Assembly: GCA_947456305.1 (NCBI GenBank)
Contig: CANGPN010000001.1
Coordinates: 1 to 64,000, forward strand
Length of the DNA: 64,000 nucleotides
Direction: 5' to 3'
Source: Comamonadaceae bacterium
GTDB lineage: Bacteria; Pseudomonadota; Gammaproteobacteria; Burkholderiales; Burkholderiaceae_C
Positions 3 to 14,312 of the stretch are shown here, in pieces (position 1 is the stretch's first letter; each line of letters opens with the position of its first letter). The notes below the pieces were generated by a model. The model was given only the letters and a program-made list of their open reading frames with translations, was not told where the DNA came from and made no database searches. The translations under genes were made by a program, and so were the position numbers.

Positions 3-1826
3 GGAACGAATGACATTGCCACTGTGAGTTCAGCGACGACGGCGGTCAGCGAAGGCAACACAGTTGCCGCTCTGAATGCTTCAGGCAAGTTACTCGTGAC
101 TGATGCAGATGCTGGAGAAGCATTCGTGGTTGCCAAGGATGTAGCAGGCACTTACGGAACCTTCCATGTGCTGGCAGACGGTACCTGGACTTACACCGGC
201 AACGGTGCGCATGATGAATTGACATCTGGTCAAAAGGTGAGTGACACCATCACAGTGACCAGTGTGGACGGCACCGGTACCGGCACGATCACGGTGAATA
301 TCACGGGAACGAATGACATTGCCACCGTGAGCTCAGCTACTGCCGTAGTCACTGAAGCCAATACAGCCGCAGCGCTGAATGCCTCTGGAAAGCTGGCCAT
401 TGCTGATGCAGATACAGGTGAAGCCTTGGTGGTGGAGCAAGATGTTGCAGGCACATACGGTACTTTCCGTGTGCAAGCAGATGGCACTTGGACTTACACG
501 GGCAATGGCGCTCACGATGAATTGACGGCGGGTCAAAAGGTCAGCGACACCATCACTGTGAAGAGCGTGGACGGCACAGGCAGCGGCACGATCACTGTGA
601 ATATCACAGGAACCAATGACATTGCCACTGTGAGTTCAGCGACGACAGCGGTCACCGAAGGCAATACAGCGGCGTCACTGAATGCAAGTGGCAAACTGAC
701 CATCACTGACGCAGACGCAGGCGAAGCAGCTTTAGTTGTGCAGGATGTTGAAGGTAAGTACGGCATATTCCATGTGTCAGCAGACGGTAGCTGGACTTAC
801 ACCGGTAACGGTGCGCACGATGAATTGACTGCAGGTCAGAAGGTTTACGACATGATCACGGTCAAGAGTGTCGACGGCACTGCCAGCGGCACGATCACTG
901 TGAACATCTCAGGAACGAATGACATTGCCACTGTCAGCTCAGCCACAACTGCGGTGAACGAAGGCAATACCGCCGCGGCATTGAATGCCGCTGGCAAGTT
1001 GAGCATTGTTGATGCAGATGCGGGTGAAGCATGGGTAGTTGCCAAGGATTTTGCTGGTACTTACGGTAATTTCCATGTGAACGCTGACGGTTCATGGACA
1101 TACACCGGCAATGGCGCGCATGACGAACTGACCGCTGGTCAAAAAGTCAGCGACAGCATCACGGTCATGAGCGCGGACGGCACAGGCAGCGGTACGATCA
1201 CCGTGAACATCACTGGAACCAATGACATTGCCACTGTCAGCTCAGCCACAACGGCGGTCACCGAAGGTAATACAGCCGCTTCACTTTATGCATCCGGTAA
1301 GCTGACCGTTGCTGATGCGGACAAAGGCGAAGCCCTCGTCGCTGCAAAAACATTGGCCGGTATTTACGGTAACTTCCGCGTCAACACGGATGGTTCATGG
1401 ACGTATACCGGTAATGGCGCGCACGATGAATTGACTGCGGGCCAAAAGGTCGTCGACAGCATCACAGTCACCAGCGCTGACGGCTTATCCAGCGGAACCA
1501 TCACCGTGAACATCACGGGCACCAATGACATTGCCGCTGTCAGTTCTGCCGCTACCTCTGTCACCGAAACCAATGCGGCAGCGTCGTTGAATGCCTCCGG
1601 CAAGCTGACCATCGCTGATACAGACACCGGCGAAGCCATGGTTGTGGCCCGGGATGTAGCAGGCATTTACGGTAACTTCCATGTCAACAGTGACGGGTCA
1701 TGGACGTACACCGGCAACGGTGCGCATAACGAGTTGAAAGCCGGACAACAGGTGAGTGACATCATCACAGTCACCAGCGTGGACGGTACGGCCAGCGGAA
1801 AAATTGCAGTGAACATCACAGGCACC
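3..1826 (+). repeat. Six exact-length 303-bp tandem VCBS units (subtype A)
   Basis: The codons for NDIATVSS (NDAAV at the last boundary) recur at 9, 312, 615, 918, 1221, 1524 and 1827, so six consecutive units are exactly 303 bp (101 codons) long. Units share long near-identical stretches, such as the GTITVNITGTNDIA segment and the WTYTGNGAHDEL segment, suggesting recent duplication or homogenisation. The array continues leftward past the window edge. Confidence 0.93.
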
Positions 1827-4800
1827 AACGATGCTGCTGTGATCAGCGGTGTAAGTACGGCTAATTTGATCGAAACCAACGCCATTCAAACCGCCACAGG
1901 TGTACTGAGTTCGGTGGATGTGGATAACGGTGCCGGCTTTACTGCGCAAAGCAATATCAACGGCAGCAGCGGTTACGGTAAGTTCAGCATAGATGCTGTT
2001 GGTCAGTGGACTTACACCATGAACACGGCGCACGACGAGTTCTTGGCTGGTAAAGCCTATACCGACAGCTTCAATGCCACCAGTGCTGACGGCACAGTCA
2101 AAGTAGTAACAGTCACCATCACTGGCACCGAAGATGTGGCGGTGATCAGCGGAACCAGCACGGCAGGCTTGCTTGAAACCAATGCAGCACTGACCACTTC
2201 CGGTCAACTGACTGTCAGCGATGCCGACAGTGCCAAGCCAGTGTTTATGGCGCAAACCAATGTCAACGGTTCAGGCGGCTACGGAACTTTCAACGTAGAC
2301 ATCACTGGCAAGTGGACCTACACCATGAACGGTGCCCACAATGAATTCTCAGAAGGCAAAAGTTACAACGACAGCTTCACAGTCAAAACCTCTGACGGCG
2401 TTTCCAAATTAGTCACTGTTACTATCAATGGTACAGATGACAAATCGGTGATCAGTGGTGTCAGCACGGCGACCCTGACCGAAACCAATGCGATTCAAGC
2501 GGCCTCCGGCAAACTGACCGCCACCGATGTAGACAGTTCACCCGCATTCGTGACCCAGACTGCGGTCAAGGGCTTGTACGGTACGTTCAATCTCGGCAGT
2601 GACGGTACCTGGAACTACAGCATGAGCACCGCGCATGACGAGTTCGCAGCTGGCAAGGCTTACCTTGACACGTTCTCTGCCAAAACGCTGGACGGGACAA
2701 CGCAGTCGGTGACAGTGACTATCAACGGTACCAATGACGCAGCCGTGATCACCGGTACCAGCACAGCCGCACTGATTCAATCGCAAGTGGCATTGACGGC
2801 GACCGGCGCATTGACTGCCACTGATGTTGACAGCGCCGCAGTCTTTAATGTGCAAACCGCAGTCAAGGGCAGCAACGGTTTTGGTAACTTCAACATAGAC
2901 GCTACGGGCAAGTGGACCTATGTGATGAATGACGCGCACAAAGAGTTCAAGCCGGGGCTGGTCTACACGGATAGCTTTACAGCCACCACGGCTGACAACA
3001 CCAGCAAACTGGTCACGGTAAGCATCACCGGTACCGACGACAAGGCGGTAGTCGCAGGCGTGAGCACTGCCGCATTGACAGAAACCAATGTCATCTTGAC
3101 TGCTGAAGGTACGTTGACATACGTTGATCCTGATGGCTCTGCAACCGCACCGTTTGTATCGCAAATCAATGTGCTGGGCAGTAACGGCTTTGGTCGCTTC
3201 AACATGGGTACCGATGGTCATTGGCTGTACACCACCAACACAGCCCATGATGAGTTTGTCAAAGATGTGAAATACACCGACAGTTTCACAGCTAAAACAG
3301 CAGACGGTTCTTTACAAGTGATCACTGTGACCATTGTCGGCACCAACGATGCTGCGGTGATACGCGGAGTGAATACGGCCAACTTGGTTGAAACTGATGC
3401 CGCTCAAACAGCAAACGGTCAATTGACGATCACTGACGTAGACAACGTGGCCGGATTTGTACCAATGACTGCAATGGCAGGTACAGCCGGTTATGGCAAG
3501 TTCACAGTGGACGCGACGGGCAAATGGTCTTACACCATGAACAATGCCCAAAATCAATTCGTCAAAGATGTCAGCTACACCGACACAGTGACTGTGAACA
3601 GCATTGACGGTATTACCAAGCAAGTGTTAACGGTCAATATTCTCGGAACCAATGACGCGGCTGTGATTGGCGGTGTGAGCAGCGGCGCGATCACCGAGTC
3701 CAACGTGATGCAATCCGCCGGAGGTCAGTTGACCATTACAGACGTCGACAATGTGTCCGCGTTTGTGCCGCAGACAGCGGTTGCCGGTTCTGCCGGGTAT
3801 GGCAAATTCACGGTGGACGCTACCGGTAAGTGGACATACACCATGAACACGGCGCATGATGAGTTTATCGGCGGAGGTATCTACAAAGACAGTATCACCG
3901 TCAGCGCTGTGGATGCGATGACCAAGGTGGTGGTGACAGTCACCATCACGGGGACCAATGACGCTGCCGTCATCGGTGGTGTCACAACTGCGGCCTTGAC
4001 GGAAACAAATGCTGCGCTCACAGCCACGGGGCAGTTAAGCATCACGGATGTGGACAGTTTGGCCGCCTTTGTGCCGCAAACTTCGGTTGCCGGTCTGTCT
4101 GGGTATGGCACATTCACGGTGGACGCGTCCGGCAAGTGGTCGTACACCATGAACACGGCTCATGACGAGTTCGTCAAGGATGTCACTTACACAGACAAAC
4201 TCAATGTGCTTGCCGCCGATGGTACTGTCCAGGTGCTGACGGTGAATATTCTGGGTACCAACGATGCAGCCGTCATTGGCGGTGTGAGTACAGCGCTTAT
4301 CAAAGAAACAGATGCTGTGCAAACTGCCACGGGGCAGTTAACCATCACGGATGTGGACAGTTTGGCCGCCTTCGTGCCGCAAACCTCGGTTGCGGGTACG
4401 GCTGGTTATGGCAAATTCACCGTGGACGCAACCGGCAAGTGGTCCTACGTGATGAACACTGCGCATGACGAGTTTGTCAAAGATGTCACTTACACCGATT
4501 CAGTGACAGTTGTTTCAGCAGACGGTACTTCTCAGTTACTGAAGGTGAGTATCGTGGGTACTAATGACGCCGCAGTCATCAGCGGCGTCAACACCGCAGG
4601 ATTGACAGAATCGAATGCGGCTCAAACCGCTACCGGTCAATTGACCGTTACCGATGTGGACAGTCCAGCTGTCTTTGTGGCCCAAACCTCGGCTGTCGGT
4701 GACCACGGTTATGGCAGTTTCAGTCTGGATACCACCGGCAAATGGACTTACACCATGAACTCGGCGCATGATGAGTTTGCCGCCGGTCAGACGTATACCG

Positions 4801-7800
4801 ACAGTTTCACAGCGATCTCGGCTGACGGTACGACCAAAACCGTGACTGTCACTATCACCGGCACAGATGATTTGGCTGTGATAGGCGGGGCTAACACCGC
4901 AGCCTTGACTGAATCCAATGCGGCACAAAGCGCCTCAGGCAGTTTGAGCGTGACAGATGCAGACGGTACTTTGCCAGCGACAGCAGTATCTGCAACTTCA
5001 ACAACACCTTTTTACACCAACAATTTCGATACTGTGTTTGGTGATGGCGTCACTTTGCAAGGCAATACCTTGATCAAAACCGGTGCCGGCGTAGGCGGTA
5101 CCGGCGCAGTTTATTTCGATGGTGATGGCGATGGCTTGGTGGTGCAGAACACCAATTTGAATCTGGGAACCAAAAGCTTTCAGCTTTCATTTGACGTGAA
5201 GGCTGATGGTGCACAAGATCCTTATTCAGTCATTCTGTCTAAGGGTACAGGCGCTTGGCCTGCCAATTATTCATCGATCCTAGAGTTCGGAAACGGATGG
5301 GCCAATAGCAATAGCCGTGGAAATTGGGGCACCTTGAATTCAACAGTCGCTACTGTTACCAATGGCAGTGTGAATGACGGCGCCTGGCATAAAGTCGGCT
5401 TTGTGCGTGATGGTCAAAATATTTCGTTTTTATTTGATGGCGTAGAAGTATCCAAAGCCCAGATTTCCGCAAGTGCTACTTATGATTTGAACGGTCTGAC
5501 CATAGGCCGTTGGCAGGGCAATAACCTGACCGATAACAATTTCAAAGGGTATGTTGATAATTTTTCAGTCACACCTTTAAGCGCTGCTTCAAGCGCTACG
5601 ACGCCAACTGCAAGCATTGCAACGCCGACTGATGGCAATGTTTTTGTCGCCCAGACGGCCGTTGCCGGCGATAACGGCTACGGTAAATTCACTGTGGATA
5701 CCGCAGGTAAATGGACGTATGTCATGGACACCGCCCACGATGAATTTGTCGGCGGTGTGACTTATACCGATAGCACCACTGTCAAAACGATTGACGGTGC
5801 TTCAAAGGTGGTCACGGTCAGCATCCTTGGAACCGATGACAAGTCAACCATTGGCGGCACTACCACAGGCACTGTGATTGAAGGTAACGAACTTACTCCG
5901 CCGAATTATGTGTATCCGCGTATTTTTTACCCGGGCATATTAGAACCTCAAGCCGTCATCACTGGCATCAGTACACAAACTGACGCTACCGGCTTGACGT
6001 CGAGGATCGGCATTCAACCTATCAATCCATTCAATCCCATTTATCCTATTGACCCGGTCAATCCCGGGTACGCCAGCACCTACGGTAAATTGACTGTCAC
6101 TGACATTGATAGTCCTTTCACACCTCAATTTGAGGTGCCTAAATATATGCCTGGCGTTCAATACTCGTTCAGTTACAACGTTGTTTATGCGGACGGCACG
6201 CAAGCTGTAGTGACCTACACCTTGCCTTCTAGCGATGGTTTGGGCTATTTCCAAGGCGATCACGGCTACGGCTTGTTCACTTTGGATACATCCGGCAATT
6301 GGACCTATTCAATGACCGGCGCGCACGATGAAATGATTGGCGGTGCCACCTATACCGACAGTTTTATCGCTAAAACCACAGACGGCACCACACAGCTTGT
6401 GACTGTCAATATCATGGGCATCAACGACGCTGCGGTGATTGGCGGCACCAAGACCATGGCTTTGACAGAAAGTGATGCAGCACAGGCCACCAGCGCTGCA
6501 CATCTGACCATCACTGATATTGACAGTCCTGCGAATTTCACAGCAAATACAGTGACTGGCGTGGCAGGCTACGGCAGCTTCACCTTGGATGCCAGCGGCA
6601 ACTGGACTTACGCCATGAATGGCGCGCACAACGAGTTCAAAGCGGGTGTGGTTTATACAGATACAGCGACCGTGTATGCAGCAGATGGCACGCCACAGGT
6701 ACTGACAGTGAATATCACTGGCACCGATGATTTGTCAGTGGTTAGCGGCACCACTTCTATCACGATCACAGAGAACAACAATGCCCAGGTGGTGTCTGCC
6801 AATCTGATCGCCACAGACCTGGACAGCGCGGGGGCGTTTGTTCCGCAGACTGCGGTGCTGGGTGACAGTCAATTCGGCAGTTTCAGCGTGGATGCTTCGG
6901 GCAAATGGACATACACCATGAGTTCGGCTCACAACGAATTCCAGCCAGGTGAGGTGTATACCGACAGCACCACATTCACCACGGTTGATGGCATCAAGCA
7001 ACTGGTGACTGTCACTATCAACGGCGCCGACGCTGCATCTACCTTCCAAGGCGAAATTCTCAAACAAATGACTGAGGGGGATAGCGCCGGCAGAGTGACT
7101 GGCCAATTGGCTCTGTTGGACGCTGACAGCAAAATAACTGCGGATGTCATCGCTCAGACTAGCACCGGTGACCAAGGCTACGGCACATTCTCCGTGGACG
7201 CTACAGGTGCCTGGACCTACACCATGAACGGGGCGCATAACGAGTTTGTAGCAGGTACCACCTACACAGATACAACCACAGTGACCAACACTAACGGCAC
7301 CACACAGGTGTTGACGGTGCAAATCGCAGGTACCAATGATGCAGCAGTGATCACCGGTGCTACTACAGCCAGTATCACTGAAACTGATGGCGCGCAGACA
7401 GTCAGCGGACAATTGCTAGGTACAGATGTTGACAACCCAAGCACTACACCCTCTAACTTCTCGGCTGTCATCAATGGTGATAACCACCAATATGAATTCT
7501 TGATCGCCAAGGCCTCTGACGGAACGACCGGTTGGTACAAAGGTGTTTCGGACGGCATGGGCGGCTGGGGTTACACCTTGCAATCCAATCAACTGGCTAA
7601 TAAGACCATCACCAGCGTTTATACCTTGGAGCATACCCAGGCAGTGTTGGCGGCTACATCCACGGCCGATCAGCGTTTGGCTGCGGTGACAGGCGAATTC
7701 AGTGCAAATGCCACTCTCGGCGATTTCAGTCAAGTCAAAGACGCTTCTGCATTGGTCGGTGTGAGCAACATGGTGGACTTTTTGGATTTGAAGGAAGTCA

Positions 7801-9653
7801 ACCTCAGCAATATTCCTGACTACACGTCAACTTTGCCTTACGCCAACGAAGGTCCTTTTGTGACTTATGGTGGCATGGTGGCGTTACCGGGCGCCAGACA
7901 GTATTTCATTTCTGCGCACGACGGCGTGGTCCCGGGAGGTTGGGCGGCATTCGATCAGATCGGAAACAACCAGATCGATCTGGGATCCTGGTATTTTGAC
8001 CGTCAAGTATTGGCAAGTGTGGATTTGACGACCGGTTTTCAGGCCATCGCTGCATCGAACAATTCAGCAGCTACCAGCTTCACAGCGCAATCCGGGGTGG
8101 CGGGTAACAACGGCTATGGTTCATTCAGTATCAATGCCAGCGGCCTGTGGACTTACACCATGAACAGCGCACACAATGAGTTCGTCGCCGGTCAGCTGTA
8201 CACAGACACTGCCACCGTGACCTCGATTGACGGTACACAGCAAGATATTTCGGTAAGTATCCTCGGCACCAACGATGCCGCCGTGATCTCACCGACCGCC
8301 AGTCATTTGACGCAGAGCAGTTCAACCATCACCGCCAGCGGACAGATAGAAGTCAGTGACACAGACAGCTCCGCGCTGTTGAATGCAGGAAATTTCACCG
8401 GCGCTTACGGCATCTTGACAGTGACGGCTGACGGTAACTGGACTTATGTCACCAGCACTGCCCATACCGAGTTTGTTGCTAACCAAACCTATGTAGACAG
8501 TTTCACGGTGACATCCAGCGATGGCACCAGCGGCAGCTTACAAGTCAATATCCTCGGGACCAACGATGCAGCCGTGATCAGCGGCACGACCAAGATCAGT
8601 TTGACCGAAACCAATGCTGTCCAAACTGCATCTGCCTTGGTGATTGCTACGGATGCGGACAACGCCAACACATTTGTGGCCCGCAGCGGCTTGGACGGCG
8701 ACCGTGGTTACGGCACCTTCAGTATCGACACCAGCGGTCAGTGGACCTACACCATGAACACCTCACACGACGAGTTCGTCGCAGGTCAGGTGTATACGGA
8801 TAACGTCACGGTCTCCACCATAGACGGCACTTCGCTGACCTTGAAAGTGGAGATCACCGGTACCAACGATGCGGCGGTCATCACTTCCAACGAGGTGGTG
8901 TTGTTTGAAACCGATGCAGCCTTGACCGCAACCGGTAAGTTAGATATCTACGACTTTGACAACAGCGCGCAGTTTGTCGCGGGAAGTTTCAAGGGCAACT
9001 ACGGTACCTTGACGCTGACCAGCGCCGGCGCATGGAATTACCAGGCAAGCTCAGCGCATAACGAGTTCATCATCAACGGTTTGTACACTGACGCTTTCAC
9101 GGTAACCGCTGCAGACGGCACGACCAGCACGGTGAAGGTCAACATCATCGGTACGACAGAAGCCAATAACGACTTGTACAGCGGCACGGCAGCAGTGAAT
9201 GTCCCCACCACTTTCACAGAGAACAGTCTGGTGCATTTGTCGACAGCAGGTGTGCAGCAAGTCAACGGCGGATTTGATGACGTCGGTTTGCTGGTGAACG
9301 CGCGCGAGGATGTGGTCAAACTGGACTTCAACTTGGCCAATGCCGACTTCAAGACCAGTGCTGACGGCCGCCACGTGGAAGTGACTTTCAACCACGATGC
9401 GTCCACACTGAAACTGTTGAGCAATGTGGAAGCGGTGCAGTTCAACGATGCACTGGTTCGCATCATCGGCGCTGACGGTTACAAAGATGTGGCCGAAGCG
9501 ACGAATGTTGTTAACAAGTCGCATATCAATTCGGGTGAGGCGGTCTTTGTGTCTGTGGCTCGCGGCTATGACGCTTTGTTAACTCACCCTTCAACGGTTG
9601 ATTTGAACAATACCTACAACACCTTGACTGACTCTTACAACCACCACGGTTGA
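3..9653 (+). CDS. Giant VCBS-repeat surface/secreted protein (5' end outside window)
   Basis: Reading frame is open from the first complete codon (position 3), so the start lies upstream of the window; over 3,200 residues are visible. The protein is a chain of about 25 VCBS-type repeats of roughly 100 residues, each ending in GTND/GTDD and containing a WTYTxNxAHDEF core. Six early repeats (to about 1826) form one subtype with WTYTGNGAHDEL; the later ones carry WTYTMNxAHDEF. Three repeats hold long insertions in one loop (about 5008-5580, 5890-6252, 7441-8076); the first looks like a LamG/concanavalin-type domain. The last 170 or so residues (from about 9150) are not repeat-like and include LSNVEAVQFND, as seen near the C-terminus of type I-secreted adhesins. 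VCBS proteins are typically exported, calcium-using adhesins; export by a type I system is inferred, since no transporter gene is in the window. It converges with the rluA-like gene. Confidence 0.9.
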   Translation, partial: GTNDIATVSSATTAVSEGNTVAALNASGKLLVTDADAGEAFVVAKDVAGTYGTFHVLADGTWTYTGNGAHDELTSGQKVSDTITVTSVDGTGTGTITVNITGTNDIATVSSATAVVTEANTAAALNASGKLAIADADTGEALVVEQDVAGTYGTFRVQADGTWTYTGNGAHDELTAGQKVSDTITVKSVDGTGSGTITVNITGTNDIATVSSATTAVTEGNTAASLNASGKLTITDADAGEAALVVQDVEGKYGIFHVSADGSWTYTGNGAHDELTAGQKVYDMITVKSVDGTASGTITVNISGTNDIATVSSATTAVNEGNTAAALNAAGKLSIVDADAGEAWVVAKDFAGTYGNFHVNADGSWTYTGNGAHDELTAGQKVSDSITVMSADGTGSGTITVNITGTNDIATVSSATTAVTEGNTAASLYASGKLTVADADKGEALVAAKTLAGIYGNFRVNTDGSWTYTGNGAHDELTAGQKVVDSITVTSADGLSSGTITVNITGTNDIAAVSSAATSVTETNAAASLNASGKLTIADTDTGEAMVVARDVAGIYGNFHVNSDGSWTYTGNGAHNELKAGQQVSDIITVTSVDGTASGKIAVNITGTNDAAVISGVSTANLIETNAIQTATGVLSSVDVDNGAGFTAQSNINGSSGYGKFSIDAVGQWTYTMNTAHDEFLAGKAYTDSFNATSADGTVKVVTVTITGTEDVAVISGTSTAGLLETNAALTTSGQLTVSDADSAKPVFMAQTNVNGSGGYGTFNVDITGKWTYTMNGAHNEFSEGKSYNDSFTVKTSDGVSKLVTVTINGTDDKSVISGVSTATLTETNAIQAASGKLTATDVDSSPAFVTQTAVKGLYGTFNLGSDGTWNYSMSTAHDEFAAGKAYLDTFSAKTLDGTTQSVTVTINGTNDAAVITGTSTAALIQSQVALTATGALTATDVDSAAVFNVQTAVKGSNGFGNFNIDATGKWTYVMNDAHKEFKPGLVYTDSFTATTADNTSKLVTVSITGTDDKAVVAGVSTAALTETNVILTAEGTLTYVDPDGSATAPFVSQINVLGSNGFGRFNMGTDGHWLYTTNTAHDEFVKDVKYTDSFTAKTADGSLQVITVTIVGTNDAAVIRGVNTANLVETDAAQTANGQLTITDVDNVAGFVPMTAMAGTAGYGKFTVDATGKWSYTMNNAQNQFVKDVSYTDTVTVNSIDGITKQVLTVNILGTNDAAVIGGVSSGAITESNVMQSAGGQLTITDVDNVSAFVPQTAVAGSAGYGKFTVDATGKWTYTMNTAHDEFIGGGIYKDSITVSAVDAMTKVVVTVTITGTNDAAVIGGVTTAALTETNAALTATGQLSITDVDSLAAFVPQTSVAGLSGYGTFTVDASGKWSYTMNTAHDEFVKDVTYTDKLNVLAADGTVQVLTVNILGTNDAAVIGGVSTALIKETDAVQTATGQLTITDVDSLAAFVPQTSVAGTAGYGKFTVDATGKWSYVMNTAHDEFVKDVTYTDSVTVVSADGTSQLLKVSIVGTNDAAVISGVNTAGLTESNAAQTATGQLTVTDVDSPAVFVAQTSAVGDHGYGSFSLDTTGKWTYTMNSAHDEFAAGQTYTDSFTAISADGTTKTVTVTITGTDDLAVIGGANTAALTESNAAQSASGSLSVTDADGTLPATAVSATSTTPFYTNNFDTVFGDGVTLQGNTLIKTGAGVGGTGAVYFDGDGDGLVVQNTNLNLGTKSFQLSFDVKADGAQDPYSVILSKGTGAWPANYSSILEFGNGWANSNSRGNWGTLNSTVATVTNGSVNDGAWHKVGFVRDGQNISFLFDGVEVSKAQISASATYDLNGLTIGRWQGNNLTDNNFKGYVDNFSVTPLSAASSATTPTASIATPTDGNVFVAQTAVAGDNGYGKFTVDTAGKWTYVMDTAHDEFVGGVTYTDSTTVKTIDGASKVVTVSILGTDDKSTIGGTTTGTVIEGNELTPPNYVYPRIFYPGILEPQAVITGISTQTDATGLTSRIGIQPINPFNPIYPIDPVNPGYASTYGKLTVTDIDSPFTPQFEVPKYMPGVQYSFSYNVVYADGTQAVVTYTLPSSDGLGYFQGDHGYGLFTLDTSGNWTYSMTGAHDEMIGGATYTDSFIAKTTDGTTQLVTVNIMGINDAAVIGGTKTMALTESDAAQATSAAHLTITDIDSPANFTANTVTGVAGYGSFTLDASGNWTYAMNGAHNEFKAGVVYTDTATVYAADGTPQVLTVNITGTDDLSVVSGTTSITITENNNAQVVSANLIATDLDSAGAFVPQTAVLGDSQFGSFSVDASGKWTYTMSSAHNEFQPGEVYTDSTTFTTVDGIKQLVTVTINGADAASTFQGEILKQMTEGDSAGRVTGQLALLDADSKITADVIAQTSTGDQGYGTFSVDATGAWTYTMNGAHNEFVAGTTYTDTTTVTNTNGTTQVLTVQIAGTNDAAVITGATTASITETDGAQTVSGQLLGTDVDNPSTTPSNFSAVINGDNHQYEFLIAKASDGTTGWYKGVSDGMGGWGYTLQSNQLANKTITSVYTLEHTQAVLAATSTADQRLAAVTGEFSANATLGDFSQVKDASALVGVSNMVDFLDLKEVNLSNIPDYTSTLPYANEGPFVTYGGMVALPGARQYFISAHDGVVPGGWAAFDQIGNNQIDLGSWYFDRQVLASVDLTTGFQAIAASNNSAATSFTAQSGVAGNNGYGSFSINASGLWTYTMNSAHNEFVAGQLYTDTATVTSIDGTQQDISVSILGTNDAAVISPTASHLTQSSSTITASGQIEVSDTDSSALLNAGNFTGAYGILTVTADGNWTYVTSTAHTEFVANQTYVDSFTVTSSDGTSGSLQVNILGTNDAAVISGTTKISLTETNAVQTASALVIATDADNANTFVARSGLDGDRGYGTFSIDTSGQWTYTMNTSHDEFVAGQVYTDNVTVSTIDGTSLTLKVEITGTNDAAVITSNEVVLFETDAALTATGKLDIYDFDNSAQFVAGSFKGNYGTLTLTSAGAWNYQASSAHNEFIINGLYTDAFTVTAADGTTSTVKVNIIGTTEANNDLYSGTAAVNVPTTFTENSLVHLSTAGVQQVNGGFDDVGLLVNAREDVVKLDFNLANADFKTSADGRHVEVTFNHDASTLKLLSNVEAVQFNDALVRIIGADGYKDVAEATNVVNKSHINSGEAVFVSVARGYDALLTHPSTVDLNNTYNTLTDSYNHHG
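5008..5580 (+). other. LamG/concanavalin-like domain nested in a VCBS repeat
   Basis: About 190 residues are inserted between the TDAD and FVAQT segments of one VCBS repeat. The insert has the order expected of a LamG fold: GAVYFDGDGDGL near its start, SFQLSFDVKAD, a central WHKVGFVRDG strand pair with FLFDG, LTIGRW, and a closing YVDNFSV. LamG domains usually bind carbohydrate or protein ligands with calcium. The fold is assigned from motif order only. The reading frame and flanking repeat resume intact afterwards. Confidence 0.7.
5890..6252 (+). other. Proline-rich insertion in a VCBS repeat
   Basis: The repeat starting near 5838 is expanded in two places: a Pro/Tyr/Ile-rich stretch (with INPFNPIYPIDP) and, after TDIDSP, about 45 residues ending just before GDHGYGLF. 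No domain is recognised. The second piece falls in the same repeat loop that holds the LamG-like insertion upstream and the unknown insertion downstream. Confidence 0.6.
7441..8076 (+). other. Unrecognised ~200-residue insertion in a VCBS repeat
   Basis: After the TDVDNPS segment of one repeat about 200 residues appear before the repeat resumes at FTAQSGVAGNNGYG. The segment is mixed alpha/beta in character, contains WYKGVSDGMGGWGYTL, a run of hydrophobic and acidic residues (MVDFLDLKEVNL) and a Gly/Trp-rich part (PGGWAAFDQIG, GSWYFDRQ). I recognise no family. Confidence 0.6.
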
Positions 9654-9670
9654 TATATGCTGGCCGCAGT

Positions 9671-10297
9671 TCACACCGCCCACGGTGGTGTGCAGTGCCA
9701 TTTCATAGCCTTTTGCGTGACCGGGTGAACAAAGCCGAGTTCGCTGGCATGCAGCAGCAAGCCGTGTTCGCTGGTCAGCTCGGGTGCATACAAAGCGTCG
9801 CCGATGATGGGGTGACCGATAGCCAGCATATGCACCCGCAACTGGTGGCTGCGCCCGGTCATCGGTTGCAGTGCGAGTAATGAGGCATTGAGGTGCAAAG
9901 CGTGTTTCAAACAGCGCCATTGCGTCACGCTGGGTTTGCCGTTGGCGTCCACTTTTTGTAAAGGCCGGTTTGGCCAGTCGGCAATGAGGGGCAGGTTGAT
10001 GGTTTGCCAATCATCGGACTGCGGCAGCAAACCATTTACCCAAGCCATGTATTGCTTTTGCACCTGACGTGCTTCAAACAACATGCTCAATGCACGCTGG
10101 CTGTCGCTGTGAAGTGCAAACACCATCAAACCGGAAGTCGCCATGTCTAAGCGATGCACCACCATGGCTGTGGGGTGTGTGGTTTGCAAACGCGTGAGCA
10201 TGCAATCTTGTTTGTCCTCACCGCGACCGGGCACGCTGAGCACGCCGCCGGGTTTGTTCAACACCACCAAATACGCGTCTTCGTAAACCAGTTGCAT
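9671..10297 (-). CDS. rluA: RluA-family rRNA/tRNA pseudouridine synthase
   Basis: A 208-residue pseudouridine synthase that isomerises uridine in RNA; by its compact size without an S4 domain it resembles RluA (23S U746 and tRNA U32 in E. coli). Visible motifs are VYEDAYLVVLNKPGG at the N-terminus, the catalytic HRLDMATSGLMVFA box with its aspartate, and GRSHQLRVHM and GDALY towards the C-terminus. The start chosen is the ATG at 10297, directly before the conserved core and 7 bases after the miaA stop; a longer open frame upstream lies wholly inside miaA and has a cysteine-rich, non-protein-like composition. Likely co-transcribed with miaA. The exact target site cannot be read from sequence. 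Confidence 0.88.
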   Translation of the reverse strand: MQLVYEDAYLVVLNKPGGVLSVPGRGEDKQDCMLTRLQTTHPTAMVVHRLDMATSGLMVFALHSDSQRALSMLFEARQVQKQYMAWVNGLLPQSDDWQTINLPLIADWPNRPLQKVDANGKPSVTQWRCLKHALHLNASLLALQPMTGRSHQLRVHMLAIGHPIIGDALYAPELTSEHGLLLHASELGFVHPVTQKAMKWHCTPPWAV

Positions 10298-10304
10298 CAG
10301 CGTT

Positions 10305-11279
10305 TCACAGCACAGACAAACGGTGCAGCAAGGCTTGCCATTGCGCTTGCAAATCTGGTTGATCACACGCCAAGACATGGCGATGCGGCATGCTGCGCAA
10401 CCAGGTGAGTTGTCGTTTGGCAAGCTGGCGGCTGGCGGCCACGCCTGTCGCACGCATTTTGCGCAGATCGTGCACGGCGGGTAGTGTGTCTTTGATGGAT
10501 TCAAGCATGTCCCAGCATTGGCGGTAACCGACGCAGCGCATAGACGGCATATCCGCATGCAAGTCACCGCGCGCGCGCAAGGCACGCACTTCATCCAGCA
10601 GGCCGTGTTGCAGCATGTCATCAAAGCGTTGCTCAATGCGCTGATGCAGCCAACTCCGTTGCACAGGTTCGAGTGACACCACGGCGATGTTGGGTCCGGC
10701 CACACGCGTGGCCCCGAAAAACGAGGACAAAGGCTTGCCGCTGACCCGCCACACTTCTAAAGCGCGTGAAATGCGTTGCGCATCGTTGGGTGGCAAACGT
10801 TGTGCGGTTTCAGGGTCTACCTTGGCAAGTTCTGCGTGCAAAGCAGGCCAGCCTTGCGCCATGGCCTGCGCTTCAATATCGGCACGCACAGCGGGCGAGG
10901 CCAGCGGTAAATCATCTAAACCTTCAACCAAGGCTTTTAAATACAACATGGTGCCGCCGACCAGCAAGGGCAGTTTGCCGCGCCCGCGAATCTCCGCAAT
11001 CAAACGTGTGGCATCGCGTGCAAACTCGGCTGCGCTGTAGCTTTGCGACGGGTCGCGTATGTCAATCAAATGGTGCGGCACGGCTTGCAATTCTTCGCGC
11101 GAAGGTTTGGCCGTGCCTATGTCCATGCCCTTGTAAACCAAGGCTGAATCCAAACTGATGATTTCCAGTGGGAGCTGCTTTGCCAGCGACAAAGCCAACG
11201 CGGTTTTGCCGCTGGCGGTCGGGCCTACCAGCGCGAGGGCCGCGTGCGCAGGCTCAGTCAGCTTTGACGGGTTCACCAT
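10305..11279 (-). CDS. miaA: tRNA dimethylallyltransferase MiaA
   Basis: MiaA adds a dimethylallyl group to N6 of A37 in tRNAs reading codons that begin with U. The 324-residue product has the P-loop [12 protein letters not shown] near residue 20, the [17 protein letters not shown] segment, HHLIDIRDP and the [10 protein letters not shown] motif, all diagnostic of the family, and the length is normal. The ATG at 11279 overlaps the end of the upstream MFS gene by 26 bases, so the genes are translationally close. The mutL-to-miaA order resembles other betaproteobacteria, here with an exporter gene placed between them. Confidence 0.97.
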
Positions 11280-12447
11280 GCCATTGCACCAAAGTCCAAG
11301 CTGTCAGCGCCAGCAGGCCGGCCCAGAAAGCCACGCCGTGCACCAACGGAAACAGCGTGCCGTCAATGCTGTGACTCAGCCAATAGCCGGTACCGAAGGC
11401 AGCCAACATCATCAAAAAACCGTTCAATGCCGAGGCCGCACCGGCGGACAACGGAAATGGGCCGACAGCGCCGCTTTGACCGATGGGCTGGTGTATGCCG
11501 TGTGCAATCACCATCGGGTACATGGCCAACACCAGACTGGTGGCGCTGGCCCAGCCGCCATACACCATCCAGCACAACAGGGCACTGCTGCTGGCGCTGA
11601 GTGTGCCGGCCAGCATGATGGTGCGGCGCATGCTTATTTTGCGCAGCAGGTAACGGCAAATGATGGTGCCGGTGATGTACATGATGGACATGGAAGACAG
11701 TATCCAGCCGAGTTGCAAACTGGACAAATGCAACACCTGTATGAACACAAACGACGAGGTGGCGAGGTATACAAACAATACGCCATAGCCGGAGAGTGAC
11801 AACAAGGCGAATGCGCGGAAGGTAGGGTGGCACAACACCTGCCACCAAATGCGCATCATGGTGGGGAAATGCATGGCACGCGGGTTGGGTCGGGTCAAAG
11901 TTTCTTCATACTTCCAAGCCACCAAAGCCAAGGTGGCCACTGCATACAGCACCACCGACACCAAGGCCACTTGCCAGCCCCAGTGCTGACTGAGAAAACC
12001 ACCGAGCGGCGGGCTGGTGCAGGCCATCAAGCCCAGACCGGTCATGGACTTGGACATGACACGCGCACCCGCTGCAGGTTCGTACAAATCACGCACCACA
12101 GCGCGTGCGCTGGTGATGACAGCGCCCATAGACGCGCCTTGCAGAATGCGCCATGCCACCAGAATTTCTATGCTGGTGCTGAGCACGCAACCGATGGCCG
12201 CGATCAGGTACAAACCCAACCCCAGCAGCATGATCGGTCGTCTGCCTACCTTGTCAGAGAAAGGTCCCCATAGCAACTGAGAAGTGCCGAACGCCAGCAA
12301 CAAACCGGTGAGGGTGTACTGCACCATGCCGACGCTTGCTTGCAAATCAGCGGCCAGGCCGGGCAGGGCGGGCAAATACAAATCGGTGGACACCGGTTGC
12401 AAACCGATGGACAAGGCCAACAGCAATATCACCAAATTAGCGTGCAT
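11254..12447 (-). CDS. Bcr/CflA-type MFS drug exporter
   Basis: A 397-residue, 12-segment major facilitator protein of the proton-driven drug-efflux type. Near residue 20 it has [12 protein letters not shown], typical of Bcr/CflA exporters, then the loop motif [11 protein letters not shown] between helices 2 and 3 and [11 protein letters not shown] in helix 4. The start is the ATG at 12447, whose bases overlap the mutL stop codon (ATGA), which implies translational coupling. An in-frame extension upstream lies inside mutL and is arginine-rich and non-hydrophobic. The substrate is unknown; bicyclomycin or sulfonamide export is known only for relatives. Confidence 0.88.
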
Positions 12448-14312
12448 CAACGGCCCCGTAAAAACAAGGCGTCGAGTTCGCGCATGCTGAGTTGTCGCCA
12501 AGTGGGTCGGCCGTGGTTGCATTGGTCGGCGCGTTCTGTGGTTTCCATTTGTCTGAGCAATGCATTCATCTCTTCTATCGTCAGTTGTCGGTTGGCCCGC
12601 ACGGCGGCATGGCAGGCCATGGCGGCCAACACATCGTCGCGCGCGCGTTGCAGCACATGGTGGGCATCGTGTTGTGCCAGTTCTGCCAGCACGCTGCGCG
12701 CCAGCGCCACCGCATCGCCTTGGGCCAACGACGCAGGCACGCATCGCACCGCCAATGAGTTGGCGGTGAGCACGGAAATTTCCAATCCCAATGCAGACAG
12801 CACTTCCGCATGGCTGTCGCAGGTAGCGATTTCTTCCGCTGTGGCAGTGAATGTGGCGGGGATCAACAGGTTTTGGCTTTGCAAAGAATGTTCGGCCAGT
12901 TGCACTTTGAGCCGCTCATAAACGATGCGTTCATGTGCTGCGTGCATATCCACCAAGACCAAGCCTTGTGCGTTTTCTGCCAGTATGTAAACGCCTTGCA
13001 ATTGCGCCAAGGCTTTGCCCAGCGGCCATTCGCCTTCAGGCAACGCAACTGTCGGCATGGGTGTGACTGCCGGGGAGTGCGGTACTTCAAATGTGTTGAC
13101 GACTGAGGGTTGCCACAGTTGACCCAGGTCTTTCAGCGGTTGCCCGGCTTGTGCTTGCCAAGGCAGGCGTGTTTGCTGCTCGGTGCGCGGCGCTGTGTGG
13201 CCGAACTGTTGCAAGCTGGAAATCGCTTGTTGTCTGTCTTGCACGAATGCGGATCTGGCAGACGCATCGCTGTCTGCCGCATTACCTGCAGGTTGACCGG
13301 CGCGTGACACTGACAGTGCACCCGAGAGTGCGTGTTGCACCGCTTGGTGTACTTCGCGGCTGTCTCTGAATCGCACTTCGATTTTGGTCGGGTGCACATT
13401 CACATCCACGCGTTGCGGGTCAATGTCTACATACAAGGCATACACCGGTTGGCGTTGCCCGTGCAACACGTCTTCGTAGGCGCTGCGTGCCGCGTGCGAC
13501 AAGACTTTGTCGCGCACATAACGGCCATTCACATAGGCGTACTGGTGGTCGGCGCGCGCGCGGGCGGCATCCGGCACACCGGCGCGACCGCGCACCCGCA
13601 CTGCGCCGTGCTGATGAACTATCCATAAAGAACTGTCTAAAAATTCCTGACCCAACACATCGGCCAAGCGCTGGTCTAAACCTTGTGCATGCGCTTGCGC
13701 CCGCCATTGCGCAATGATTTTGCCGTCGTGCCACAAAGCAAAACCTACATCAGGCCGCGCCAATGCGTGGCGCTTGAGCGACTCCAGGCAATGCGCGAGT
13801 TCGGTGGCGGTGGACTTTAAAAATTTACGCCGAGCCGGTGTGCTGAAAAACAGTTCTTTCACTTCCACCGTGGTGCCCTGGCTTCTGGCCACCGGTTTTA
13901 ATTCGCCGCTGCGTGCATCGAGTTGCATGGCGTGTTCTTGTGCTGCGGTGCGCGACATCAGACTGAGCTCAGACACCGCAGCGATAGCGGCCAGCGCTTC
14001 ACCGCGAAAGCCCATGGTGGACACGGACTCCAAGTCGTGCAGGCTGGCAATTTTGCTGGTGGCATGGCGCTTGAGTGCCAACGGCATCTCTGAAGGCAGC
14101 AAGCCACTGCCGTCGTCTTCTACGCTGATCAAACGCACACCGCCTTCGACCAATCGCACCACCACATTCGTGGCACCGGCGTCCAGTGCGTTATCTACCA
14201 GTTCACGCACCACCGAGGCCGGGCGCTCCACCACTTCGCCTGCGGCTATTTGGCTGATCAGTTCGTCGGGGAGTTCGCGTATGGCGCGTGGCGGGGTAGG
14301 GGAGGAATTCAC
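12447..14312 (-). CDS. mutL: DNA mismatch repair protein MutL
   Basis: MutL links MutS mismatch recognition to downstream incision. The 621-residue protein has the GHKL ATPase motifs near the N-terminus (ISQIAAGEVVERPASV, ELVDNALDAGAT, GFRGEALAAIA) and a C-terminal dimerisation domain. The C-terminal domain carries DMHAAHERIVYE, close to the endonuclease motif DQHA-x2-E-x4-E with Q replaced by M, and CNHGRPT, matching the CPHGRP motif of endonuclease-type MutL. This suggests a nicking MutL as in bacteria without MutH, which is inference. The ATG at 14312 gives the expected short leader before the ATPase. Confidence 0.96.
   Translation of the reverse strand: MNSSPTPPRAIRELPDELISQIAAGEVVERPASVVRELVDNALDAGATNVVVRLVEGGVRLISVEDDGSGLLPSEMPLALKRHATSKIASLHDLESVSTMGFRGEALAAIAAVSELSLMSRTAAQEHAMQLDARSGELKPVARSQGTTVEVKELFFSTPARRKFLKSTATELAHCLESLKRHALARPDVGFALWHDGKIIAQWRAQAHAQGLDQRLADVLGQEFLDSSLWIVHQHGAVRVRGRAGVPDAARARADHQYAYVNGRYVRDKVLSHAARSAYEDVLHGQRQPVYALYVDIDPQRVDVNVHPTKIEVRFRDSREVHQAVQHALSGALSVSRAGQPAGNAADSDASARSAFVQDRQQAISSLQQFGHTAPRTEQQTRLPWQAQAGQPLKDLGQLWQPSVVNTFEVPHSPAVTPMPTVALPEGEWPLGKALAQLQGVYILAENAQGLVLVDMHAAHERIVYERLKVQLAEHSLQSQNLLIPATFTATAEEIATCDSHAEVLSALGLEISVLTANSLAVRCVPASLAQGDAVALARSVLAELAQHDAHHVLQRARDDVLAAMACHAAVRANRQLTIEEMNALLRQMETTERADQCNHGRPTWRQLSMRELDALFLRGR

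Follow-up and report, generated by a model that had tools for sequence, protein, structure and literature searches.

Two of the 25 VCBS repeats encoded at the start of a contig from a Comamonadaceae bacterium, R17 and R22, are on balance best understood as split domains that display binding domains, derived from the ordinary extender repeats of what is probably a giant surface adhesin. VCBS repeats are a common component of giant surface proteins in bacteria, and the protein described here is probably a giant adhesive fibre protein located at the surface of this freshwater bacterium. The window, a stretch of 64,000 nucleotides, opens contig C1 of an assembly of 2.59 Mb that is 86.9% complete, and its start is also the contig start. 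The open frame (3..9653, forward strand) lacks its 5' end and runs stop-free over 3216 amino acids, comprising the 25 repeats and a C-terminal tail of about 167 residues. All 25 listed matches to TIGR01965 lie above the curated cut-off. The frame encodes no cysteine, and its acidic residues (321) far outnumber the basic ones (116).

Cut at the repeat starts, 21 repeats measure 97-103 residues, R17 reaches 323, R18 196 and R22 312, and R25 includes the tail. Strands are lettered by their order in the models and by the cadherin convention, and the repeat HMMs were built for this analysis from the repeats of the window and from those of other loci. The end of the DxD motif is separated from the next YG or FG by 13-18 residues in 22 of the 25 repeats, by 238 in R17, by 227 in R22, and by 52 in R18. 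In 24 repeats the motif itself is complete by residue 34-36, but in R18 only by residue 94. Both measures together indicate that R17 and R22 are opened in the B-C loop, and R18 in the A'-B as well as the B-C loop. The sequence-only reading had proposed three unrelated inserts in one and the same loop; three repeats are indeed interrupted, but only R17 and R22 conform to that description. Its figure of 5-12 residues for this loop in the remaining repeats depends on how the residues are counted. All three interrupted repeats fall within the last nine of the 5'-truncated frame. At the opposite end, R1 to R6 (window 3-1820) form a tighter subgroup, R2-R6 sharing 71-79% DNA identity with R1; their A'-B loop differs slightly, and their DxD is followed by a Gly-Glu that later repeats do not show.

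The clearest case is R17. Its N-part, with strands A, A' and B and the TDAD motif (4860..4976, forward strand), matches positions 1-43 of the repeat HMM with 26.1 bits, and its C-part, with strands C to G (5637..5828, forward), matches positions 34-102 with 54.2 bits. The B-C loop insert between them (4977..5636, forward) consists of a LamG domain (profile match 5121-5570) and its linkers. Scanned alone, the insert matches PF13385 with an E value of 2.2e-10 and 41.3 bits, above the curated cut-off of 27.6, in agreement with the LamG-like domain previously suggested at 5008-5580. In the Pfam scan of the whole protein PF13385 is absent from this region, where PF02210 (E 2.6e-6) is listed instead, together with a PF00054 match that falls short of its cut-off; in the PDB, chains of neurexin and laminin match over short stretches. 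The R17 copy is thus like LamG by profile, but differs from it by its divergence and by sitting inside a VCBS repeat. As a query, this LamG domain finds one match outside its own genome among 300 genomes of the order. The whole arrangement was not seen in 60 relatives of R17, since their matches were confined to query residues 1-45 and 233-323, which span the VCBS parts and reach no further than the linker leading into the C-part.

The layout of R22 is the same. An N-part that extends a few residues past its TDVD (7329..7442, forward; 46.9 bits with the half-repeat HMM) and a C-part (8073..8264, forward; 96.0 bits) flank a B-C loop insert of about 210 residues (7443..8072, forward), for which profile and genome searches found no relatives. 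These covered 300 genomes of the order, where the insert matched only itself, and plasmids, phages, Pfam and the PDB (the latter up to an E value of 10), where no match was significant. The unrecognised piece of about 200 residues noted earlier at 7441-8076 is therefore borne out, both in its place and in its want of a convincing relative. Matches in 5 of 368 other genomes of the class (E 0.004-0.008) cover short stretches, one of them with stops, and were taken as chance; a match to Pfam FliC_D2 (E 0.017) falls under the cut-off and was not used. The 3' ends of both long inserts (4977-5636 and 7443-8072) bear a faint likeness to strand B and the DxD (ASIATPTDGN and FQAIAASNNSAAT) right before the C-parts, and these stretches attract the alignment program MAFFT. 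They could be due to chance, or could be a trace of duplication left by the insertion.

R18 is built differently. A short N-part with strands A and A' (5829..5888, forward; HMM match 1-21, 4.3 bits) is followed by a proline-rich insert (5889..6080, forward), then by strand B and TDIDSP (6081..6116, forward), placed by the half-repeat HMM and the ligand alignment, by a second insert in the B-C loop (approximately 6117..6254, forward), and by the C-part (6255..6416, forward; HMM match 47-102, 40.6 bits). Proline makes up 16.7% of the first insert (residues 1962-2027), against 1.5% across the whole protein. Since the DxD ends at residue 94 of the repeat, this piece lies ahead of the TDID, in the A'-B loop. 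The sequence-only reading merged the two inserts into one (5890-6252) and so assigned the proline-rich stretch to the wrong loop; only the portion at about 6117-6254 belongs to the B-C loop. The latter resembles a VCBS F-G hairpin: it scores 10.5 bits against a model of the C-half built on the 21 regular window repeats, a value reached by none of 2000 shuffles, and AlphaFold2 models it as a hairpin with strands at model residues 436-442 and 448-454 (block pLDDT 62-82). The proline-rich stretch matches the N-half model weakly, with 3.9 bits (3 of 2000 shuffles). R18 is probably a rearranged repeat of spacer-like and repeat-derived material rather than a carrier of cargo.

The family of the repeats provides a guide to their calcium sites. 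When the repeat profile is compared with the PDB, 6xi1 is the sole match under an E value of 0.7 (E 1.3e-62, over four repeats). This entry is titled as a tetra-tandem repeat of an extending RTX adhesin from Aeromonas hydrophila, and, as judged by this match, the window repeats belong to the family of the AhLap extender domains. The inter-domain Ca2+ ligands of 6xi1 given in section 3.5 and Table 4 of PMC7493085 include Asp160/266/372 and Asp162/268/374. By the numbering of the profile alignment, the TDVD motif supplies Asp160 and Asp162 of the second repeat, while Glu143 and Asp144 fall at the end of the A' segment, Gln202 and Leu204 in the E-F region, and Asp220 at the DG of the F-G turn. 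All 25 window repeats keep the DxD, and 23 keep the A' glutamate, which is replaced by Gln in R10 and in R23; linker position 3 is N or D everywhere but in R8 (Glu), and R21 deviates at D4 and D90. R17, R18 and R22 all retain the DxD, the N or D at position 3, D4, E18 and D90. Equivalents of Asp144/250 (G, A, S, T or N instead) and of Glu166/272 (a gap or T) are missing from all window repeats, interrupted or not, and the Gln202/308 position is Glu in every repeat except R12. The calcium site is therefore not identical to that of AhLap, but the repeat joints of the window protein may also bind calcium. The ligand alignment further places the beginning of the B-C inserts of R17 and R22, and of the A'-B insert of R18, close behind calcium-ligand positions.

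Structure prediction, suggested in the sequence-only reading as a check, gave a divided answer. AlphaFold2 was run on R17+R18 (49 alignment rows) and R22+R23 (61 rows), with rows taken only from repeats and fragments of the window and the loci, so that the pairing of the halves is partly built into the models. Mean values are a pLDDT of 61.2 and a pTM of 0.44 for R17+R18, and 65.6 and 0.46 for R22+R23. As means of 10-residue blocks, the halves are modelled with confidence, with a pLDDT of 84-96 in the N-half up to residue 30 and 89-98 in the C-half for R17, and of 76-94 in the N-half up to residue 30 and 88-97 in the C-half for R22, but the inserts, modelled without relatives, are mostly below 50. 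With larger row sets, MAFFT at default settings moved the TDxD of the other repeats behind the insert, which would place the insert between A' and B. This was corrected by adding short N-part rows from the same repeats, the expected placement being known beforehand. LamG rows from other genomes were dropped because MAFFT aligned them with VCBS strands. The top Foldseek match of both models is again 6xi1 (E 7.5e-14 for R17+R18 and 1.8e-12 for R22+R23), with TM-scores of at most 0.36 over whole chains and an rmsd above 20. Lower matches are mostly cadherins and, for R17+R18, also the MpAFP peptide-binding domain. By sequence, the complementary halves flanking the inserts of R17 and R22 appear to make up one beta-sandwich each. 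Inserts beginning at different positions of the fold had been named as evidence against a shared loop: R17 and R22 begin in the same B-C loop, but R18 is also opened between A' and B.

Insert-bearing VCBS loops, which the earlier reading had recommended looking for, also occur in other genomes. VCBS repeats are present in 87 of 399 genomes of the order and in 20 of 84 of the same genus, the source genome being included in both counts; one frame in a same-genus genome (L073, G011:C3) extends over 13784 amino acids. The census covered 83 sources (the window, 40 regions, L108, L109 and 40 loci), all picked for matches to VCBS or LamG. In 280 full-length repeats, taken from 41 sources, inserts of at least 8 residues fall after profile columns 9 (3), 22 (7), 42 (8), 46 (29), 57 (2) and 82 (1), so that the stretch from DxD to YG is the most variable, with 37 of the 50. 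A strict rule for split repeats, applied to 84 frames after removal of duplicates (537 full repeats), lists five, namely R17, L139, L099, one of those in L068, and L088. It misses R18, R22, the lectin of L068, L078 and L080, which were found by looser rules and by reading. Rows resembling neighbouring non-VCBS domains, frameshifts and contig ends were left out. Given the choice of sources and the missed cases, the insert rates are rough. A search of viral contigs gave six pattern matches, none of them a relative.

Several of these loci repeat the layout of R17 and R22. L139, from a beta-proteobacterial MAG, carries an insert of 250 residues in the B-C loop between an N-part and a complementary C-part; it was compared with LamG and no relationship was found. 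L099, L078 and L080 hold B-C loop inserts of about 200 residues that are homologous to one another (BLASTP E 6e-11 to 9e-31), come from two genomes of different families (G172 and G442), and show no significant match to the inserts of R17, R22 or L139. Their host repeats are VCBS-like, the N-part of L099 scoring only -1.6 bits with the repeat model. Other loops are used as well. In L068 and L110 a C-type lectin piece sits in the loop between A' and B of the final VCBS repeat ahead of the RTX repeats (PF00059 E 2.9e-6 for the L068 stretch and 2.8e-11 for the L110 protein; PDB E 3.1e-8). L068 also has about 400 residues (about 1344-1755) with seven SDGGWVxTW units between strands A and A', perhaps a propeller, and L088 has an insert of 142 residues shortly after the QAL of the E-F region. 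The halves of the L068 lectin (G474:C2, residues about 2195-2371 of frame 4097-13171) are seemingly swapped, as in a circular permutation: the N-terminal half is well supported, and the stretch ahead of it, NNWDIGQPGAND...GLWHD, which we take to be like a C-type lectin C-terminal half, scores 2.2 bits in one PDB alignment and has no Pfam match alone. Pairwise comparison of inserts of different kinds (a set of 11) gave no significant match, with lowest E values of 0.084 (BLASTP) and 0.021 (phmmer). Eight kinds of large insert were accepted (R17, R22, L139, the L099 kind, the A'-B insert of R18, two in L068, and L088), four of which use the B-C loop. This loop is therefore a favoured insert site, but not a unique one. 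The earlier idea of a single permissive loop agrees with L139, L099, L078 and L080, and is too narrow in view of the inserts at A'-B, A-A' and E-F.

Other explanations have been weighed against the split-domain reading. R22 might not be split at all, but consist of a complete, degenerate repeat from residue 2443 to about 2550, a region of about 140 residues, and a repeat without its N-part. The full HMM does continue past the N-part to profile position 85 (2443-2545, 23.2 bits), model residues 51-100 form strands with block pLDDT values of 69-77, and the insert matches the C-half weakly (2.9 bits). However, that last score is reached by 49 of 2000 shuffles, which is not significant over eight tests, and the half models built from the window, which are distinct from the model giving 23.2 bits, assign 46.9 bits to the N-part and only 2.2 bits to the continuing stretch. 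As R17 shows the same layout around a clearly foreign domain, we regard an unsplit R22 as unlikely. A further proposal, that the inserts are functionless debris of recombination between similar repeats, finds its best case in R18, with its hairpin-like B-C insert and weakly N-half-like proline-rich stretch, and also fits the R22 insert, for which the searches made returned no relatives. It accounts poorly for a foreign LamG domain inserted in frame, for the insert that L099, L078 and L080 conserve between different families, and for a frame that stays open over 3216 codons, and seems rather improbable for the inserts in general. Most doubtful is the notion that the inserts are independent inter-repeat domains flanked by broken half-repeats. 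Non-VCBS stretches do seem to separate repeats at L072, L073, L074 and L130, but in R17 and R22, as in L139, the insert stands between a single N-part and a complementary C-part, which leaves this notion very little probability.

Under the preferred split-domain reading of R17 and R22, most stalk repeats would bear the fibre, and a few would be opened at a loop adjoining the calcium joint. The chain would fold strands A, A' and B, leave the repeat at the B-C loop right behind the putatively calcium-binding DxD, form a cargo piece outside it (LamG in R17, a piece without known relative in R22), and re-enter to complete strands C to G. As the calcium joint between repeats would be kept, the rod would stay stiff. 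Each cargo would fold and project from the rod, sideways beside the joint, and, from its place close to the distal (C-terminal) end of the fibre, would probably bind a surface or a glycan. The previously suggested scaffold displaying cargo is favoured by halves without evident loss in R17 and R22, by the retained ligands, by unrelated inserts elsewhere and by a published principle, but does not extend to R18. A broader version, which we put forward only tentatively, would make the VCBS extender repeat a general docking frame. The loops that follow directly on the calcium ligands between repeats (behind E18 in A'-B, D33xD35 in B-C and QxL in E-F) might each accept a foreign domain and leave the joint undisturbed, any stalk repeat would be a potential display site, and freshwater Burkholderiales could alter the binding of their fibres by swapping cargo. 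Should inserts in known loops prove to be markers of binding domains, such domains could be detected from sequence alone, with no need to model whole proteins, and the insert sites could host grafted domains on a calcium-stiffened rod.

The protein shares some features with known RTX adhesins. Its 25 repeats resemble, in sequence, the tandem beta-sandwich extenders with linker Ca2+ ligands of this class; the frame holds no GGxGxD motif of the RTX nonapeptide type, and the whole-protein scan found no HemolysinCabind match. An operon for type I secretion (OEP, ABC and HlyD) lies on contig C28, unlinked to the adhesin gene in the assembly, and the adhesin may be exported by this system. The OEP gene of that operon (L192, G000:C28, 3-3263) encodes a repetitive, charged, coiled-coil-like front region of more than 500 residues, cut by the contig start. 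Ten downstream frames were scanned; nine have Pfam matches, but no type I secretion gene is among these, and the assembly, 86.9% complete as stated above, gave no match to a LapG-type protease (PF06035). For the split-domain reading the secretion operon is a point in favour, and the lack of GGxGxD motifs and of a LapG match are points against.

AhLap is the nearest structural relative: 6xi1 is alike in repeat family and in the alignment of the DxD with its calcium ligands, but its solved repeats are free of inserts, and the window repeats lack two of its side-chain ligands. According to PMC12077191, the ligand-binding domains of AhLap are C-terminal, at the distal tip. PMC10865825 describes split Ig-like domains as orienting two binding domains, PA14 in MpIBP and the peptide-binding domain in FrhA, the latter a homolog of that of M. 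primoryensis (5k8g). Foldseek also matches the 5k8g structure to the R17+R18 model (E 4.4e-5), with a low TM-score of 0.17, and the VCBS profile does not match it at an E value of 5 or below. The main text of neither paper mentions VCBS or LamG, and no description of VCBS repeats as split domains was found among the titles and abstract openings listed from the open literature. In the cases that the two papers describe, too, a binding domain exits an Ig-like domain whose fold is completed once the chain comes back, and the hosts are likewise giant secreted adhesins, with the split domains of AhLap in its C-terminal region. The split domains described in these papers are Ig-like and stand apart from the highly repeated extenders, whereas here VCBS extender repeats themselves carry the inserts; in the RTX-like split domain of AhLap the chain exits after the first strand, and here after strand B and the DxD. 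The split-domain principle is thus already published, and the present case is best read as a variant of it built from an ordinary stalk repeat.
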